Source of the DNA: a virus
Reading direction: 5' to 3' (one strand)
IMG/VR virus record: IMGVR_UViG_3300020190_000002
Location: 1-20,452 of that record
DNA: 20,452 bases
Below, piece by piece: positions 1 through 20,452 of this stretch; positions within the stretch are counted from its first letter, which is position 1; the number at the start of each line of letters is the position of its first letter. A model generated the notes under the pieces. The model did no database searches and was not told the DNA's origin. It was given only the letters and a program-made list of their open reading frames with translations. The translations under genes and the position numbers were made by a program.

Positions 1-55
1 AAAGCCTATGTTGGTGATAATGATCTATTACATGCAGATCATCCAAGATATTCAA
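1..55. repeat. Terminal direct repeat, left copy (circular overlap)
   Basis: These 55 bases are identical to the last 55 bases of the window (20398-20452). The reading frame ending at the right edge continues in phase from base 1, so the repeat marks the ends of a circular or circularly permuted contig. An overlap of 55 equals a k-mer length commonly used by de Bruijn assemblers, so it is more likely an assembly overlap than a biological terminal repeat. Confidence 0.95.
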
Positions 56-3010: not shown

Positions 3011-3418
3011 ATGGCAATATTTATGGGTAACAAAGTTGCAGTCATTGTTGGAGCTACAACAATCAGCGACCATGTTAGTACAGTCAGTTTAAATCGTGAG
3101 GTAGAGCAAGTAGTAATTTCCAGCATGAATGACACTGTACAGAATATGGTAGGGGGTCTCGAGGTTTCGCAAGTGAGCCTGGAAGTCTTCAATGATTTTG
3201 CTGCATCATCTGTAAATAGTTTATTTGAGGATGCAATCGGCACTAAGTTGGCAATCAAATTGATACCAGTAACAGGCACAGTCTCAGCGACCAATCCAAG
3301 TTACTCAATGTCATGTTTGGTTTCCCAATGGACACCAATTTCAGGATCAACCGATTCTGCAATGACAGCCAGTATTACACTTCCTGTTACAGCTATTACA
3401 AAATCAACCAGCTCTTAA
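3011..3418 (+). CDS. Major tail (tube) protein
   Basis: A 135-residue, Ser/Thr/Val-rich, probably beta-rich protein directly before the tail assembly chaperone, the standard place for the tube subunit. It has a strong Shine-Dalgarno sequence (AAAGGAAA at 2999-3006) as expected of an abundant protein. Segments such as NKVAVIVGATTISDHVSTVSL and DSAMTASITLPVT look like alternating strands. It is short for the family (many are 150-250 residues), consistent with a minimal tube domain without a decorating Ig-like domain. Identification relies mainly on context and composition. Confidence 0.65.
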   Translation: MAIFMGNKVAVIVGATTISDHVSTVSLNREVEQVVISSMNDTVQNMVGGLEVSQVSLEVFNDFAASSVNSLFEDAIGTKLAIKLIPVTGTVSATNPSYSMSCLVSQWTPISGSTDSAMTASITLPVTAITKSTSS

Positions 3419-3434: not shown

Positions 3435-3692
3435 ATGCACAGAATTGAGATCACAAAGAAAGACGGCAAAAAGATTAGTTATGATCTTACGCCATCAGTC
3501 AAAGTTGCATTTGAGGCAGAGTTTAAGACTGGGTGGCGTAAGAGGCTGGCTGAATCACAAATGGAGTCAGATTTGTGGTGGTTTGCGCATAGACTTGAAA
3601 AAGATGCAGGCAAAACAGATTTAGCCTTTGGTAATGAGTACATAGATCAATATGAAGATGTTGATCTAATCTATGACTCAAAAAATGGCTAG
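3435..3692 (+). CDS. Tail assembly chaperone, unshifted short form (gpG-like)
   Basis: An 85-residue protein with a good Shine-Dalgarno sequence (AGGAAAGGAAGG upstream). The pattern (EITKKDGKKISYDLTPSVKV, FKTGWRKRLAESQ, LWWFAHRLEKDAG, then an acidic YEDVDLIYDSKNG end) matches the N-terminal gpG-like part of siphovirus tail assembly chaperones, which bind the tape measure during tube assembly. It lies between the major tail protein and the tape measure. The zero frame stops at TAG 3690-3692, four bases after a slippery AAAAAAT, and the -1 frame continues open to 3847. This form is therefore probably the major one of two products. Confidence 0.8.
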   Translation: MHRIEITKKDGKKISYDLTPSVKVAFEAEFKTGWRKRLAESQMESDLWWFAHRLEKDAGKTDLAFGNEYIDQYEDVDLIYDSKNG

Positions 3693-3847
3693 ACCGACAT
3701 GGACAGATTTGGGAGATTGCATCTGTGTCGGTTGCAACTGGTATCAGCCCTAAAGATCTTTTAGAGGTTGAGCCTGCAGTTTATATGGCAATCAAAGCCA
3801 TATTGCATGAGCAATCTCAAAAATCAAGGACAATGAGGCGCAGATAA
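3435..3847 (+). CDS. Tail assembly chaperone, -1 frameshifted long form (gpGT-like)
   Basis: If ribosomes slip back one base at AAAAAAT (3680-3686), 84 codons of the first frame are followed by 53 codons of the -1 frame, beginning TGG at 3686-3688 and ending TAA 3845-3847, for 137 residues. The added part reads WLDRHGQIWEIASVSVATG, then ISPKDLLEVEPAVYMAIKAI and a basic tail. The D-L-L-x-x-x-P-x-x-x-x-A-I pattern is typical of the T domain of frameshifted chaperones. The extension fills what would otherwise be a 154-base gap, and its TAA overlaps the ATG of the next gene (TAATG). The frame, slippery site, spacer and stem are seen directly; that slippage happens is inferred. Confidence 0.8.
3680..3732 (+). 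promoter_or_regulatory. Programmed -1 ribosomal frameshift signal
   Basis: The slippery heptamer A AAA AAT (3680-3686) is in the correct phase. After a 6-nt spacer, ACCGACATGGA (3693-3703) can pair with TCTGTGTCGGT (3722-3732), an 11-bp stem with two G-U pairs and an 18-nt loop. The spacing and stem fit known stimulators of -1 frameshifting. The zero-frame TAG lies in the spacer. Confidence 0.8.
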
Positions 3848-4482
3848 TGTTTCAATTTAAAATTGATGAGGCAATCTATATTAAAAACTTTGATGCGATT
3901 TTAGAAAAGTTAGAAAAGATGGATCCTAAACTTGCCAAAAAATTTAAAAGCCAATTACGCAAAGCGATAAGACCTGTTCAAAATAAAGCCAAAGGTTACA
4001 TACCAAACTCACCCTTTCCAGGTTGGCGTGAAACTAAACCCTTTTATCCGACCAACTGGGGTTGGGCTTATGACAATGTTCACCGAGGTCGCACTTATGG
4101 TAAGACCAATGAGTCAAGGTGGCAATGGGATGCCGAAAAGGTAGCGAGAGGGATTCGAATATCATTTGCCCCAAGTAAAGTACAAAGACAAGGTTTAAAT
4201 ATATCGGTCTCAGCTTTGTCATTACAAAATACCAGTGTGCCAGGTATTATCTATGAATTAGCTGGATTTGGCACAGCCAAAAGTAAAGGCCGCACTAAAA
4301 GAGTAAGTCGTAACCCGAACGCCAGCGAAGAGTTTATTGACAGAGTGAGAAGAGCAGAAAAAGGCGGCAATAGTGGCAAACAAAGGCTTATCTATAGAGC
4401 CGCACATGAATTAAAAGATCAGGTACATGCTAATCTTTATGGTGTGCTTAAAAAATATTTAGGCGAAAATTTTAAAGGGTAG
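3847..4482 (+). CDS. HK97 gp10-like / minor tail protein
   Basis: A 211-residue basic protein. The start (FDAILEKLEKMDPKLAKKFKSQLRKAIRPVQNKAKGYIP) resembles the N-terminal helix pattern of HK97 gp10-like proteins, in which a K/R-rich helix precedes a small A-K-x-x-x-P segment. The middle is rich in W, Y and R (WGWAYDNVHRGRTYGK). The family acts in head-tail joining or tail completion. Here the gene lies between the chaperone and the tape measure rather than near the connectors, so a dedicated tail role is also possible. Its start overlaps the stop of the frameshifted chaperone (TAATG), supporting translation coupled to the long form. Confidence 0.55.
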   Translation: MFQFKIDEAIYIKNFDAILEKLEKMDPKLAKKFKSQLRKAIRPVQNKAKGYIPNSPFPGWRETKPFYPTNWGWAYDNVHRGRTYGKTNESRWQWDAEKVARGIRISFAPSKVQRQGLNISVSALSLQNTSVPGIIYELAGFGTAKSKGRTKRVSRNPNASEEFIDRVRRAEKGGNSGKQRLIYRAAHELKDQVHANLYGVLKKYLGENFKG

Positions 4483-4484
4483 AT

Positions 4485-6266
4485 ATGCCACTTAGTCAAA
4501 ATGTAATTATTAACTTCCTTACAAAGTTTGATAAAAAAGGACTCCAAAGGGCAACCAAAGATTTAAAGGGTTTTGACAAGTTTGTTGCAACTGCCAGATT
4601 TAGTTTGGCAAGATTCGCCAAGGTGAGTGCAATCGCGGCTGGAACTGGCTTAACAATATTTGCTAAAAAATCTATAGATGCGGCCTTAGCTCAAGAACGC
4701 TTAGATAAATCTTTACAATTAACTTTGTCATCCATTGGTAAAACTGGGCTTTTATTACAAACAAAAGAGTTTATCGAAAACTTGCAGGATTTAACAAATA
4801 TCAGCGAAGATCAACTCACACCAGCTTTACAAAAATTGATCGCCCAAACTGGCAACCTAGATTCTGCTCAATTACTTTTGACCAGAGCATTAGATATATC
4901 GGCGGGAACAGGTCAAGAATTTGATTTGGTGCTAAATGCGATCACAAAAGCGGCGGTAGGTAATTTTGCCAGCCTGGGCAAACTCTCGGTTGGATTATCG
5001 GCTGCCGAGGCCAAAGCAATGGGTTTTGTTGAAGTCATGCAGGCTTTGGAGAGATTTCAAGGTGATGCCGAGGAATCAACAAAAACATTGGCAGGCCAGA
5101 TTCGCGGATTTAGAATTGATGCAGGTGAGGCAACTGAAGAGGTAGGAACTGGATTCCTGCAGATGTCCTCATTTATTGCAGGCACAAAGGGTGATCTTGA
5201 TAAATTTGGTAAATCTCTTGTAACAAAAGCTAAAGATTTTGCAGACTTTATGGTTGGTTTTGGTAAAGTCTCTAATCAAAAAGGTTTTTTTGATGCTGTT
5301 ACAACTGGATTCAATGATCTTGCCAAAGAGGGTAATAAAGTAAGACAGGAAAGAATCTTAAAAGAAAAAGGGTTATTTGGTTTATCAGGTAATGTTTTGA
5401 GTGCATTGGAACAACAAAATAAAGTTACTAATAAACAAAAAAATTCTGCAGCCATATTAGCAAAAATTCAGGCCGATATTTTAGCAAAAAATAAAAAGAT
5501 AAATGCTGAAAAACGCGCCCAGGAAGCCTTAGATAAAAAGAAGGCGCAGCTTGAAGCAATGTTTGATATTGATCGGATAAATCTACAGGCTGCTCTTACT
5601 CGCAAGTTATCTGCCGAAGATGCACTTCGAGTAAAACTTTTGCAACAACTTGCAGATGGTACAAAGGCTGCAGTAGATGAAGCACAAAGATATGCAGATG
5701 TCTTAAAGGTTATTGAAGATGGCAAAATCACTACAGCTGAAATTGATGAATTAGCTAAAAAATGGGGCATCTCAACCACTGCAGTCTTACTGTACTTGCG
5801 ACAATTATTTGAGGCCAATGCCGCTTTAAGATCTATGCTGGCATTACTTGATGAATTAGCAAAGAAAAAATTTCCGCAACCAACTATGGGTGGGGGTGGG
5901 GGAATGTTTGAGCCTGGATATTTTATTGAATTAGGCCAACAATTAGTGGGCACAAAAGGTTACGCGGGCATGAGCGCAGCTGAGATTACCGCTGAAAGAT
6001 ATAAAGAATCTGGTGCAGCTCGCAGAGGTATCCCTTTGTTTGCAGATGGTGGCATTGTCACCAAACCAACTCTTGGCATGTTGGGCGAGGCTGGTAGTGA
6101 AGCGGTAATTCCATTAGATCGCATAGGGAGCATGGGTACAAAGGTCGTAGTAAATGTGCAAGGCTCTGTTATATCTGAGGGTCAATTGCAATCTGTAATC
6201 CAAGATGTTTTGTATAACTTAAACCGAACTGGGGCGGTTACTCAGCTCACAAACTTAGGCAGATAA
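4485..6266 (+). CDS. Tape measure protein
   Basis: A 593-residue protein, the longest in the window, directly after the tail chaperone region. It starts with an amphipathic basic segment, has one hydrophobic stretch near residues 45-65 (KVSAIAAGTGLTIFAKKS), and a long helical, Lys/Ala/Glu-rich part at about 316-470. Near residues 519-545 is the widespread tape-measure C-terminal motif (FADGGIVTKPTLGMLGEAG then SEAVIPLDR). At about 0.15 nm per residue, a family rule of thumb, it predicts a tail of roughly 90 nm. A G-rich run encodes five glycines at 5888-5902. The start is 2 bases after the previous stop, and the stop overlaps the next start (TAATG). Confidence 0.92.
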   Translation: MPLSQNVIINFLTKFDKKGLQRATKDLKGFDKFVATARFSLARFAKVSAIAAGTGLTIFAKKSIDAALAQERLDKSLQLTLSSIGKTGLLLQTKEFIENLQDLTNISEDQLTPALQKLIAQTGNLDSAQLLLTRALDISAGTGQEFDLVLNAITKAAVGNFASLGKLSVGLSAAEAKAMGFVEVMQALERFQGDAEESTKTLAGQIRGFRIDAGEATEEVGTGFLQMSSFIAGTKGDLDKFGKSLVTKAKDFADFMVGFGKVSNQKGFFDAVTTGFNDLAKEGNKVRQERILKEKGLFGLSGNVLSALEQQNKVTNKQKNSAAILAKIQADILAKNKKINAEKRAQEALDKKKAQLEAMFDIDRINLQAALTRKLSAEDALRVKLLQQLADGTKAAVDEAQRYADVLKVIEDGKITTAEIDELAKKWGISTTAVLLYLRQLFEANAALRSMLALLDELAKKKFPQPTMGGGGGMFEPGYFIELGQQLVGTKGYAGMSAAEITAERYKESGAARRGIPLFADGGIVTKPTLGMLGEAGSEAVIPLDRIGSMGTKVVVNVQGSVISEGQLQSVIQDVLYNLNRTGAVTQLTNLGR

Positions 6267-8751: not shown

Positions 8752-9225
8752 GTGGCAAAAATAATTGAATTGACCAGCCCAAATGGTTGGCCTGCAAGTA
8801 AAGATCGTAAAGAGATAGGTATTGAAAGTTTTACAGTGCCTGGTACAAAGATCAAGTTTGCATGTGCCAAATCTGTCGCACCCTTACTTGTCAATTTTGC
8901 CAAAGAGTTTAATAATTTAGTTGAGCCGATTGATTGCGGTCAATTAGACGACTGGGGTTATGCCTTCCGACAAACCAGAGGCTCAGACAAAATTTTGAGT
9001 AATCATGCATCTGGCACAGCGATTGATTTAAATGCAATTAAACATCCATTAGGCAAGTCAAATACCTTTACCAAAGATCAGCGTAATATAATAAAGCTGC
9101 TCATAATTAAATACGGACTAATTTGGGGTGGTAATTTCAAAACACGCAAAGATGATATGCACTTTGAAATCGCTTTAAATCCCGAACAGGTGCGTGCCAA
9201 AATAAAAGAGTTAGGATTAAAATGA
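8752..9225 (+). CDS. Endolysin, M15-family D,D-carboxypeptidase/endopeptidase
   Basis: A 157-residue protein read from GTG at 8752, with no strong Shine-Dalgarno sequence. It has the zinc ligands of the M15 (VanY/L-Ala-D-Glu peptidase-like) family: His85 and Asp92 in SNHASGTAIDLN, and His137 in KDDMHFEI, with a catalytic acidic residue expected at Asp134 or Asp135. This family cuts peptide cross-links or stems of peptidoglycan. No signal peptide or separate wall-binding domain is visible, so it probably relies on the holin-like products just downstream. Its stop overlaps the first of these (ATGA). This lysin type with two small membrane proteins is common in actinophages. Confidence 0.88.
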   Translation: MAKIIELTSPNGWPASKDRKEIGIESFTVPGTKIKFACAKSVAPLLVNFAKEFNNLVEPIDCGQLDDWGYAFRQTRGSDKILSNHASGTAIDLNAIKHPLGKSNTFTKDQRNIIKLLIIKYGLIWGGNFKTRKDDMHFEIALNPEQVRAKIKELGLK

Positions 9226-9633: not shown

Positions 9634-10320
9634 ATGCAAAGCTGTGCAATCGTACCCACTCGGGGTAGGCCATCAAACGCTCATAGATTAGCCAATGCCT
9701 TCAATGAAACTGCAGCATTTTCTCAACTGTACTTTGTTGTTGATAATGATGACCCACTCTGGACTGATTACACCAGACATGAAGAGGTGCTCAATTATCG
9801 CTGTATTAGTTTGGAAAACAAAACAGGTGGCTGTGCTAAATCTTTAAATGATGCCGCAGTTCAACTTTTGGATTTTTGTAATTACCCTGCATTTGATTAT
9901 TTTATTTTTATGGGTGATGATCACTTACCCAAAACAAAAAACTGGGATCAAAGGTTAGTCGAAGCCATAGGTCTTGACCAAGGCATTGCCTATGGTGATG
10001 ATCTTTTGCAAGGTGAGAATCTACCTACAGCTTATGCCATGAGTCGGGAGCTCGTGGTCGAGTTACAGGGTATGACCTTTCCTGGATGCAAACATCTATT
10101 CTTTGACAACTTTGTCAAACAACTAGGTATTGATCTAAAAAATCTTAAATATTGTCCAGATGTCATAATTGAACACTTGCACCCAGTTGCAGGCAAAGCT
10201 GAGGTTGATGAGGGCTACGCCAGGGTCAATCAACCCAAGTGGTATGAAGAGGATTTACTAACATTACAAAAATTTTTAAGAGGTACACAATATGCCGAAC
10301 TCATCCATAAATTCAGATGA
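9634..10320 (+). CDS. GT-A-type glycosyltransferase
   Basis: A 228-residue protein with features of a family 2-like GT-A fold. An N-terminal VPTRGRP at residues 7-13 is typical for nucleotide-sugar binding, a beta strand ends in YFVVDNDDP, and IFMGDDHLP holds a D95-D96-H97 metal-binding motif in the place of the usual DxD. HLHPVAGKAE near the C-terminus is a plausible acceptor or catalytic region. The ATG at 9634 is preferred because TTTAGG (9621-9625) lies 8 bases upstream; a TTG at 9628 is the alternative. It overlaps the epimerase gene (ATGA), so the two are probably co-translated. Likely targets are a virion protein, host surface sugars or phage DNA; the sequence does not say which. Confidence 0.75.
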   Translation: MQSCAIVPTRGRPSNAHRLANAFNETAAFSQLYFVVDNDDPLWTDYTRHEEVLNYRCISLENKTGGCAKSLNDAAVQLLDFCNYPAFDYFIFMGDDHLPKTKNWDQRLVEAIGLDQGIAYGDDLLQGENLPTAYAMSRELVVELQGMTFPGCKHLFFDNFVKQLGIDLKNLKYCPDVIIEHLHPVAGKAEVDEGYARVNQPKWYEEDLLTLQKFLRGTQYAELIHKFR

Positions 10321-11189
10321 ATATTTTAATCACTGGCTCACATGGCTTTGTCGGTAGGGCTTTCCGTAGAGCTTTACCAAATGTTTCATTGACTCTGGTA
10401 GATTTAAAAAACGGCACAGATTGTCGTACCTTTTTTAAGCTAGAGACCAAACAATATGATTTGGTCATACATTTAGCAGCCATTGTCGGTGGTCGAATGC
10501 AGATCGAAGGCAATCCACTTAGTCTTGCAGTTGATCTTGCGATTGATGCTGAGTTTGCGAATTGGTGTTTGCTAACCAGACAGCCCTATGTTGTCTATTT
10601 TAGTTCATCCGCTGCATATCCAATCGAGCTGCAAACCCTTGCAAAAAAACACAAATTAAAAGAAAAAGATTTAGATTTCAAAAAGATTGGCGCACCTGAT
10701 ATGACCTATGGCTGGACAAAATTAACAGGTGAGACTTTGATGCAGTATCTAAGGGATGCAGGCACAAAGGTTTTAGTCTTAAGGCCATTTAGCGGATATG
10801 GTACAGACCAAGATTTAGATTATCCCTTTCCAAGCATTATCCAAAGGGCGATCTTAAATTGTAATCCTTTTGACATTTGGGGCAGAGCTACGACGACCAG
10901 GGATTTTATACACATTGATGATGTTGTAGCCGCTGTCATTACAATGGTTAAAAATGATTGTAATCAAACTCTAAATTTATGCACTGGCCGACCATTGACA
11001 TTTTTACAACTTGCTCAGATTGCCATGCGCACAATCGGAATTGACAAGATGCCTAGATTTAATATCTTGACGGATAAGCCAGCTGGCGTGGCCTATCGGG
11101 TGGGCAACCCTGCCATGATGAGTGATTATTACACACCAAAAATAACAATCGAAGAGGGTGTCCACCGAGCAATCGCAGGGGTAATCTGA
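10317..11189 (+). CDS. NAD-dependent epimerase/dehydratase (extended SDR, GDP-fucose synthase-like)
   Basis: A 290-residue extended short-chain dehydrogenase. The Rossmann motif GSHGFVG (G7, G10, G13) binds NAD(P). The catalytic set is FSSSAAY (Ser96-98) with Y131-x-x-x-K135 in TYGWTK. The segment HLAAIVGG, RPFSGYG and the late TRDFIHIDDVV pattern match nucleotide-sugar epimerases, most like GDP-fucose synthase or GDP-4-keto-6-deoxymannose epimerase-reductase. The product probably supplies or alters the sugar donor for the adjacent glycosyltransferase. Its substrate is not proven, and no partner dehydratase is encoded here, so the host would have to make the precursor. Confidence 0.82.
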   Translation: MNILITGSHGFVGRAFRRALPNVSLTLVDLKNGTDCRTFFKLETKQYDLVIHLAAIVGGRMQIEGNPLSLAVDLAIDAEFANWCLLTRQPYVVYFSSSAAYPIELQTLAKKHKLKEKDLDFKKIGAPDMTYGWTKLTGETLMQYLRDAGTKVLVLRPFSGYGTDQDLDYPFPSIIQRAILNCNPFDIWGRATTTRDFIHIDDVVAAVITMVKNDCNQTLNLCTGRPLTFLQLAQIAMRTIGIDKMPRFNILTDKPAGVAYRVGNPAMMSDYYTPKITIEEGVHRAIAGVI

Positions 11190-12556: not shown

Positions 12557-12756
12557 CAATTTTGGAAAGTGTTTTGCAAAGCAAAATTGAATTTAGATAC
12601 TTAGCAGATGAAGAGACTTACTTGGCCTACACTACAAATGCTTTGGGTAAGTATGAGGCAACGGCTAAACAGCCACATGAAGCGGTGCGCAAACTCAAGT
12701 CAAATCTATTTACTTTGATGGCAAAATATTTACAGAACAACCTGGTGAGCCATTGA
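12550..12756 (+). CDS. Unknown small protein
   Basis: A 68-residue protein overlapping the previous gene by 7 bases and the next one by 4 (TTGA). It looks like a mixed alpha/beta domain: a possible beta part (IEFRYLADEETYLAYTTNAL) then a helix (PHEAVRKLKSNLFTLMAKYL). No family is recognised. Tight overlap on both sides supports real translation. Confidence 0.6.
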   Translation: MLTILESVLQSKIEFRYLADEETYLAYTTNALGKYEATAKQPHEAVRKLKSNLFTLMAKYLQNNLVSH

Positions 12757-13235
12757 ACGCCGCGACTTATATTGAAAAAGGCTGGAAGGTTTTACCCTTG
12801 CGAGCAAACTCAAAAGAGCCATGTAAGTTTTTAAGGCATGGTTATCTGGATGCCAGTGATGATGTACAAACCCTAAACAAATGGTTCAAGGATGATACTT
12901 TAAACATTGGCCTGGCAATCGTACAGTCAAGCTTAGTGGTCTTAGATTTTGACAAGCGAAATGCCATTGCAAAAAGGGAGTGGCAACATTATTTTACCTG
13001 GTGTATGGAGTTAAATACGCATACAGTTAAAACTGATGATGGGTATCACTTTTATTTTAAAGCTGATCCTGGCCTTAGTTTTAAAGGTAAATTGATTGCA
13101 GGCATTGACATCAAGCACAAAGGATATGTTGTATTGCCACCATCAACTCACCCAAATGGTTCAATTTATACAGTAATGAAGGATGTAGATCCGATTGATC
13201 TACCTGATGGTTTGCGAAAGGTGTTGATCTGGTGA
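12753..13235 (+). CDS. Stand-alone primase-polymerase (Prim-Pol N-terminal) domain
   Basis: A 160-residue protein made only of the bifunctional primase/polymerase N-terminal domain. The N-terminal GWKVLPLRANSKEP matches the family's usual start. VVLDFDKR holds the two acidic metal ligands D65 and D67, TDDGYHFYF the His99 motif, and GIDIKHKGYVVLPPSTHPNG the third motif with D119 and the nucleotide-binding PPS. All catalytic motifs are present. In most phages and plasmids the domain is fused to a helicase, but here it ends right after motif III. It could prime DNA synthesis for host polymerase. The start is TTG 12753, overlapping the upstream stop (TTGA). Confidence 0.85.
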   Translation: MNAATYIEKGWKVLPLRANSKEPCKFLRHGYLDASDDVQTLNKWFKDDTLNIGLAIVQSSLVVLDFDKRNAIAKREWQHYFTWCMELNTHTVKTDDGYHFYFKADPGLSFKGKLIAGIDIKHKGYVVLPPSTHPNGSIYTVMKDVDPIDLPDGLRKVLIW

Positions 13236-14701: not shown

Positions 14702-15187
14702 ATGTTAAGGTTTGGTCGGTTTGTGGGGGGCTTACACTGGGGGTCGGTCATACCGAGTGACGCTTACTTCAACTCTAATATTAAAAAAAAATATTGGGGG
14801 TGGGGGGGCTTTGCTAAAAATCAAGTCACCCAAGTGACAATGTTTTTAATAATAGTATTAAATCTTTTAAATATAAATAATGCTTTTGCTCAATCCAAGA
14901 TCAATATTTACAAGCAAGAATACTTTAAGCAATTAAAATATGATTTTGATCAAGCTTATTGTGTGATTGATTTAGTGATGCGGGAGAGTAGTTTTAATCC
15001 CAAGGCTCAAAATGGAAGTCACTTTGGGTTACCGCAGGGCAAATCTGAATATCTCAAGACAGCTACATATAAACAACAAATAACTTGGCACATTAAATAC
15101 ATTAAACACAGATACGGCACTGATACATTTGGCACTGCAAACGCATGTGCAGCATGGGCGCATTGGTTAAAAAAGGGGTGGCATTGA
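14702..15187 (+). CDS. Lysozyme-like / lytic transglycosylase protein, membrane-anchored or secreted
   Basis: A 161-residue protein. From about residue 66 it resembles actinobacterial lysozyme-like (SLT/Rpf-type) domains: VMRESSFNPKAQNGSHFG with a catalytic Glu95, then QITWHIKYIKHRYG and a closing CAAWAHWLKKGW. Residues 47-63 (MFLIIVLNLLNINNAFA) look like a signal peptide with cleavage after AFA. The start is ambiguous. ATG 14702 has a Shine-Dalgarno sequence (AGAAGGG, 8 bases upstream) and adds 46 Gly/Trp/Lys-rich residues; ATG 14840 gives the bare signal peptide but has no ribosome site. The extension is coded by a stretch with four G runs (6, 5, 5 and 7 G). It may aid DNA entry or lysis. 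Confidence 0.75.
   Translation: MLRFGRFVGGLHWGSVIPSDAYFNSNIKKKYWGWGGFAKNQVTQVTMFLIIVLNLLNINNAFAQSKINIYKQEYFKQLKYDFDQAYCVIDLVMRESSFNPKAQNGSHFGLPQGKSEYLKTATYKQQITWHIKYIKHRYGTDTFGTANACAAWAHWLKKGWH
14725..14808 (+). other. G-tract-rich segment
   Basis: Four G runs on the + strand: G6 (14725-14730), G5 (14739-14743), G5 (14796-14800) and G7 (14802-14808), in an otherwise AT-rich genome. A small stem (TCGGT, loop CAT, ACCGA, at 14743-14755) and a repeat of GGTCGGT lie between them. G5-T-G7 could form a G-quadruplex in DNA or mRNA. It lies over the uncertain 5' end of the lysozyme-like gene. Confidence 0.65.
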
Positions 15188-15930
15188 AAGAGACCGACAG
15201 AATTACAATCGGCATCTGTTCACCTGGTTATGTCGTAACCGACTTTTTGACAAGCTTGTTGGATGTGGCGAGAAGTCAAAAGCAATTAGGTCAATTTATT
15301 TCACTACAGGGATCAGGGGTTATTAGTAGATTACGCAATCAAGTGATCTCAACCTTCTTAGAAAAAACCAGTGATCAATGGTTGTTGCAGATAGACACTG
15401 ATCAAAGATTTAATGTAAATGATTTTAGGAAGTTAGCAGATGCCGCAGATGAAAAAGAGAGGCCAATCATCTCAGGTGTGGTACATGGTGGGTGGGAGGT
15501 AGGCGAGGCATACCTTGAGCCAGTGCCTTGCATCTTTAGACATGGCAAAGAGAGTGGCTTATATGCGGTACATGATTACCCAGCTGATACTATTATTGAG
15601 GTTGATGCCGCTGGCACTGGAGCAATCCTGGTACATAGATCCGTCTTTGAGAGGTTTCGCAAGGAAGCTGATCAAACCCACCAAGGTGATAAGTGGGGCT
15701 ATTACCAGGATATGCCACTACACCATGAGTGGATCGGTGAAGATTTATTGTGGTGTGTCAGGGCGCGAAGCTTTGGATATAAGATTCATGTGCATACTGG
15801 GGTGCAGATGGAGCATCAACGCAAGATGTGGGTAGGTCAAAAACAACATGCTGACTTTGCAAGATTTAGGCGAGCTAGGCTACAAAGTGAGGATCAGATC
15901 TTGCAGATGACCTCAGATTCTGCCAACTAA
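15178..15930 (+). CDS. Second glycosyltransferase (GT-A fold)
   Basis: A 250-residue protein. ITIGICSPGYVVTDFLTSLL starts like family 2-type transferases, SRLRNQVISTF fits the R-N-x-x-V helix seen in phage homologues, and WLLQIDTDQRF contains the metal-binding D73-x-D75. GEDLLWCVRARSFGY near residue 200 is the typical E-D-x-x-x-C-x-R acceptor-site motif. The start may be GTG 15178 or TTG 15184. The latter overlaps the previous stop (TTGA) and has AAAAGGGG a good distance upstream. It is unlike the first glycosyltransferase in sequence and lies 4 kb away, so the two probably act on different acceptors or steps. Confidence 0.75.
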   Translation: MALKETDRITIGICSPGYVVTDFLTSLLDVARSQKQLGQFISLQGSGVISRLRNQVISTFLEKTSDQWLLQIDTDQRFNVNDFRKLADAADEKERPIISGVVHGGWEVGEAYLEPVPCIFRHGKESGLYAVHDYPADTIIEVDAAGTGAILVHRSVFERFRKEADQTHQGDKWGYYQDMPLHHEWIGEDLLWCVRARSFGYKIHVHTGVQMEHQRKMWVGQKQHADFARFRRARLQSEDQILQMTSDSAN

Positions 15931-19781: not shown

Positions 19782-20452
19782 CCATCCAGATTGTGATGGC
19801 TTTGCAGTTGTAAAAGATGCAGATAATGAATTACTTGGTTGCCACAAAACAAAATCTCAAGCCCAGGAACAACTGACTGCAATAAACATCTCCGAGTATG
19901 GCACTCGCGCTTTGCCGCAAAATTACAGACCAGCCTCTAGTGATGATGTACCTGAAGGTCGCAACTGTGCTAATTGTAGTTTTTATCGCGCTGGTTATTG
20001 TGAACTCTGGGAGGCCAATGTCAAAGCCAATTACTATTGCAACCGCTGGGCAGCCATGGTGGAAGATAGAGCAGATCCAGCTGCACCAAAAAAAGATCAG
20101 ATTGAGGGCAGTGACAAAAACAAACCTGGTAGTGCTGCAGGCAAGGGCGGAGATATTACAATCAATGCTGCCACTGAGACAGCTTTACAAAATAAGGCAG
20201 ATGATCATAATGCAGCTATGAGTAAGGCAGATCGCCCGAACTGGACAAGGGTGCGTGTTGGTTCATTGAAGGCTGTGTATCGAAGGGGGGCTGGTGCATA
20301 CTCAACATCTCACCGACCTGGTATTGGTAGGGCGCAGTGGGCAATGGCTAGAGTAAATGCGTTTTTATATTTAGCAAGGACTGGTGCGCCAAAAAATAAA
20401 GCCTATGTTGGTGATAATGATCTATTACATGCAGATCATCCAAGATATTCAA
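19759..20452 (+). CDS. Modular head-region protein with Cys cluster, N-terminal part (continues at 1)
   Basis: The first 231 codons of a 368-residue protein that continues in phase at base 56 and ends at 468. Module 1 (residues 1 to about 48, MPYSIKNDHPDCDGFAVVKD, GCHKTKSQAQEQL) is a short domain I know from many actinophage head-protease regions. Module 2 (70-98) holds C70-x2-C73-x7-C81-x12-C94 followed by NRW, spaced like a zinc- or iron-sulfur-binding site. Next is an Ala/Gly/Lys linker. Module 3 (about 162-232, TRVRVGSLKAVYRRGAGAYS, TSHRPGIGRAQWAMARVNAF) is basic and aromatic. It starts inside the protease gene and precedes the capsid gene, so a role in head assembly or maturation is likely but unproven. 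Confidence 0.85.
   Translation, partial: MPYSIKNDHPDCDGFAVVKDADNELLGCHKTKSQAQEQLTAINISEYGTRALPQNYRPASSDDVPEGRNCANCSFYRAGYCELWEANVKANYYCNRWAAMVEDRADPAAPKKDQIEGSDKNKPGSAAGKGGDITINAATETALQNKADDHNAAMSKADRPNWTRVRVGSLKAVYRRGAGAYSTSHRPGIGRAQWAMARVNAFLYLARTGAPKNKAYVGDNDLLHADHPRYS
20398..20452. repeat. Terminal direct repeat, right copy
   Basis: Exact copy of 1-55. The codon phase of the crossing gene is kept when one copy is removed, giving a circle of 20,397 bp. Confidence 0.95.

Follow-up and report, generated by a model that had tools for sequence, protein, structure and literature searches.

A predicted -1 frameshift cassette in the putative tail assembly chaperone gene of an uncultured aquatic phage family

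Introduction

The -1 frameshift in tail assembly chaperone genes has been known since phage lambda. There, the order is major tail protein, G, G-T produced by a -1 shift, and tape measure, with the fusion made in a minority (PMC5009743). More than two thousand actinophage genomes now have an annotated joined chaperone gene (PMC10885494). The chaperone of Microbacterium EE-cluster phages has the slippery site GGGAAA (PMC11749239).

Here, we describe a related arrangement in IMGVR_UViG_3300020190_000002. The window that we analysed is the entire 20,452-base virus record. We conclude that a phage tail assembly chaperone gene in this DNA very probably contains a cassette for -1 programmed ribosomal frameshifting, of the type known from lambda G/GT. 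We infer from sequence that the shift occurs, how efficient it would be and that the product acts as a chaperone. The cassette appears to be unannotated so far in this phage family.

Results

Position of the cassette among the tail genes

A 55-base direct repeat is found at both termini of the window (1-55 and 20398-20452). Hence, the record probably represents a complete genome, about 20.4 kb in length. The capsid protein is nearest to those of mycobacteriophages (36%) and the major tail protein is nearest to those of Rhodococcus and Pontimonas phages. An actinobacterial host is therefore likely. A prokaryote genome collection, searched with the chaperone and the portal, contained no relatives. 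Hence, no host was assigned via prophages. The relatives of this phage are presumed to come from fresh water, as is usual for such collections. The genome also encodes a lone prim-pol domain (12753-13235), an NAD-dependent sugar epimerase/dehydratase (10317-11189) and an M15 peptidase that is a probable endolysin (8752-9225).

The cassette is located between the genes for the major tail protein and the probable tape measure protein, with a single gp10-like gene intervening. The features are as follows.

3011 to 3418, + strand: major tail protein gene, directly upstream of the G-like ORF (phrog_4574, E 1e-12)
3435 to 3692, + strand: zero-frame chaperone ORF (G-like), 85 aa, stop TAG at 3690-3692
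3680 to 3686, + strand: slippery heptamer A AAA AAT, in -1 phase
3687 to 3692, + strand: 6-nt spacer GGC TAG, with the zero-frame stop
3693 to 3703, + strand: 5' arm of the putative stimulatory stem, ACCGACATGGA (conserved pairs 3693-3702)
3722 to 3732, + strand: 3' arm of the putative stimulatory stem, TCTGTGTCGGT (conserved pairs 3723-3732)
3686 to 3847, + strand: T-like extension in the -1 frame, 53 codons and a TAA stop, predicted to be reached only after a -1 shift
3847 to 4482, + strand: HK97 gp10-like gene, directly downstream of the T frame (PF04883, E 8e-4, just under the cut-off)
4485 to 6266, + strand: probable tape measure protein gene (phrog_23574, E 3e-5, plus position)

Genes of the gp10 type usually precede the tail terminator, but here the gp10-like gene separates the chaperone gene from that of the tape measure.

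The G-like ORF ends ...TCA AAA AAT GGC TAG. The zero frame thus reads AAAAAAT as A AAA AAT, which is the phase required for tandem -1 slippage. The T frame begins with TGG at 3686 (TGG CTA GAC CGA...) and ends with TAA at 3845-3847, sharing one base with the ATG at 3847 of the next gene. A first-pass annotation had claimed a correctly phased AAAAAAT, a 6-nt spacer holding the zero-frame stop and 53 codons in the -1 frame ending at the start of the next gene. All three are exact, and its 137-residue fusion agrees with the length that we compute for the predicted product. The listed genes of the window contain 66 in-phase X XXY YYZ heptamers. Hence, the heptamer alone is unremarkable.

In the mechanism that we propose, the majority of ribosomes would terminate at TAG 3690, giving the 85-aa G-like protein. 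Some ribosomes would be paused by the stem (3693-3732) when their P and A sites are on A AAA AAT. This fraction would slip one base back onto AAA AAA, bypass the stop and yield a G-T fusion of 137 aa. If the two proteins act as lambda gpG and gpGT do, G would form a coat on the tape measure protein, and the minority fusion would bring in the major tail protein through its T part.

Heptamer, stop and -1 frame are conserved together

From a translated search of viral contigs, which gave 271 candidate relatives, we retained the best 80. All 80 have the 85-aa zero-frame ORF, T in the -1 frame and the junction AAAAAAT GGN TAG. A second search was seeded with the neighbouring major tail protein and so was blind to the cassette. 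Here, the cassette was present in 75 of the 75 loci with enough sequence. When both searches were pooled, heptamer, zero-frame stop and -1 reading frame occurred together in 163 of 164 complete relatives. The sole exception (L105), also the only complete locus to depart from GGN TAG, has a one-base indel upstream of an intact cassette. On this comparison, the candidate cassette is far above chance through its conservation across relatives, not through the heptamer or the stem by itself.

The stem is conserved in close relatives but is not universal

The 40-nt stem-loop folds at -15.2 kcal/mol (z = -2.9, which is modest by itself). The first-pass annotation had described an 11-bp stem. Both arms are present, and two of the pairs in the window are G-U. 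Each of pairs 1-10 is formed in 92-100% of the 71 distinct sequences compared, but pair 11 (3703-3722) in only 31%. The conserved stem is therefore 10 bp. Over pairs 1-9, pairing amounts to 98.6%, compared with 20-58% when the arms are slid out of register.

Co-variation was assessed on a tree built without the stem columns. Pair 5 occurs as A-U, G-U, C-G or U-G across relatives, and all six supported independent contrasts change in a compatible direction (p 0.03). There is also one double change at pair 2, from C-G to U-A. In a subgroup with ...CCATTTCGGT, a C-U mismatch is found and the stem is weaker (z -0.55). Several relatives with C CCA AAA have hairpins no better than shuffles, and hairpins are stable in many, not all, members of the phiPsal1 group described below. 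Because of the weak subgroup and these C CCA AAA relatives, the stem is not universal. A pseudoknot scan of the loop against downstream sequence identified no helix kept in nearly all sequences (the best had 5 pairs in 85%).

Distant relatives use other heptamers

The major tail protein of Pontimonas phage phiPsal1 (L324, MG835450.1) is related to that of the window (24%). Its genes are ordered major tail protein, an 83-aa ORF, an unannotated stretch, one further gene and the tape measure gene. The 83-aa ORF ends TCA AAA AAA TAA, and a T homologue in the -1 frame fills the unannotated stretch. The phiPsal1 and window fusions align end to end with 27% identity (E 3e-9 for a single comparison). 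The -1 T domain accounts for the annotation gap at 11069-11168. Annotated gene 017 of phiPsal1 begins within the T region, and its start may have been called too early. An unnamed phiPsal1 gene occupies the position matching that of the window's gp10-like gene.

A search seeded with phiPsal1 found 51 loci. Counting phiPsal1 itself, 51 loci have both parts, and 50 of these have T in the -1 frame. Among the distinct junctions examined in this group, only that of L332, where T is in +1, departs from an in-phase A AAA AAA or C CCA AAA. Compared with near-identical sequences, this locus lacks a single base at the stop, which is probably an error.

These heptamers bear on whether the slippage could be transcriptional. 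RNA polymerase might add or drop bases on the A run, leaving some mRNAs with T in phase. Poly-A can slip in transcription, and there are six A's in the window and seven in the phiPsal1 group. However, such slippage has been described where the run exceeds seven A's (PMC3711429). Moreover, relatives with C CCA AAA have only four A's, and T is still in the -1 frame. Hence, transcriptional slippage is unlikely for the entire family. An invariant phase, an adjacent stop and a co-varying stem are also things required by ribosomes, not by polymerase. We regard slippage by the polymerase as very improbable here. The change of heptamer within one family, while T stays in -1, is clear comparative evidence for ribosomal over transcriptional slippage.

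The -1 codons are conserved as protein upstream of any start

Selection was compared between frames using 150 distinct sequences. The zero-frame part has a pN/pS of 0.14. In the -1 frame, values are 0.19 for 3692-3724 and 0.15 for 3725-3808. The other two frames give 1.3-2.2 (1.3 and 2.1 over 3692-3724). The 53 codons are thus conserved at the protein level. Each comparison with relatives that the first-pass annotation had called for favours its reading. A -1-frame stop, TGA 3674-3676, lies just 5' of the heptamer and is in the same place in 141 of the 150 sequences. From this stop to GTG 3725, the -1 frame of the window contains no ATG, GTG or TTG. Hence, 3692-3724 should be selectable as protein only via frameshift entry. 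The conserved T residues before GTG 3725 are W-L/I-D-R-H-G. Judged by these ratios, purifying selection acts on the -1 codons, also on those 5' of the first possible start codon.

Alternatively, T could be a separate small protein started internally at GTG 3725, by re-initiation or internal initiation. In 131 of 150 distinct sequences, GTG, ATG or TTG at codon 3725 is the first -1-frame start, and the window has GGGAG upstream of its GTG. Yet protein-level conservation is just as strong in the codons 5' of this GTG, most relatives lack the GGGAG and a separate T would leave the invariant heptamer unexplained. We consider an internal start highly improbable. Finally, although the adjacent ORFs are two frames of one protein family, a single ORF broken by sequencing error or recent frameshift mutation is refuted by the identical split in 150 distinct sequences and in phiPsal1, and its likelihood is negligible. 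Programmed ribosomal frameshifting is the reading that we retain.

Elsewhere in the window, a second in-phase heptamer (A AAA AAG, 15169-15175) lies about four codons 5' of the stop of ORF 14702-15187. It leads into a 251-codon -1 frame, and ORF 15145-15930 overlaps ORF 14702-15187. The ATG of this downstream gene sits upstream of the site. Hence, the site is probably a mere gene overlap.

Gene order and T homology support a putative chaperone role

Profile searches of PHROGs, Pfam, NCBIfam and PDB, using the fusion and its parts, gave nothing significant and no match to a chaperone profile. PHROG_166 ('tail protein') recurred as a weak match (best E 0.06), from which we drew no conclusion. 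AlphaFold predicts a strand-helix-strand fold for G (pLDDT 83) and a three-helix unit for T (pLDDT 87). The best matches of the G fold are unnamed phage proteins of 83-106 aa, and a comparison with solved structures found no match. The T fold has weak matches only, including an Arthrobacter chaperone at E 4. The T sequences of the phiPsal1 group match, weakly (E 0.05-0.4), small frames that follow or overlap annotated chaperones of Gordonia phage Schiebs and of Arthrobacter phages MooKitty and SerialPhiller. The T domains of these phages are in -1 relative to G and have the motif T-G-I-[SA]-P. The identification as a tail assembly chaperone, made in the first-pass annotation, is thus supported by gene order, G/G-T architecture and homology to -1-frame T domains of annotated chaperones, and not by profiles.

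Discussion

Our data support a hidden second product in uncultured phages of a widespread aquatic group. The mechanism itself is a well-known phage device and is no surprise. Together, G and T form a protein family unrecognised by the profile libraries used. Hence, automatic annotation will miss it. We tentatively raise the possibility, which we think rather doubtful, of a single lineage of cassettes in aquatic, probably actinobacterial, phages. Within it, the heptamer would have changed among three forms (A AAA AAT, A AAA AAA and C CCA AAA), with stems rebuilt or lost. If so, these phages would be a natural series for testing a heptamer-stem trade-off that holds a fixed G:GT ratio.

The locus shares with lambda G/GT the gene order and, as predicted from sequence, the architecture of G plus a minority G-T. 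It differs in its shorter G (85 aa), its conserved stem 6 nt downstream and the one gene between T and the tape measure. By profile, there is no sequence similarity between the two. Microbacterium EE-cluster phages (Bri160, Biscayne) likewise have small actinophage genomes and a -1 chaperone, which is a joined gene there. However, their chaperone has its own PHROG (15555), which the window protein does not match.

The 15-kb Arthrobacter and Gordonia phages (MooKitty genes 10-11, Schiebs 13-14, SerialPhiller 10) also have a -1 T between the major tail protein and the tape measure. Compared with T of the phiPsal1 group, MooKitty and Schiebs show 63-70% identity over 27 aa, and SerialPhiller shows 37%. 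In contrast to the window, these chaperone pairs have an extra gene between the major tail protein and G, and neither Schiebs nor MooKitty showed an X XXY YYZ heptamer near the stop. Gene 016 and the adjoining gap of phiPsal1 differ from the window in having seven A's, a stop directly after the heptamer, a different hairpin and a T that is unannotated in GenBank. They resemble it in having the same gene order, a G of 83 aa and a homologous T in the -1 frame.
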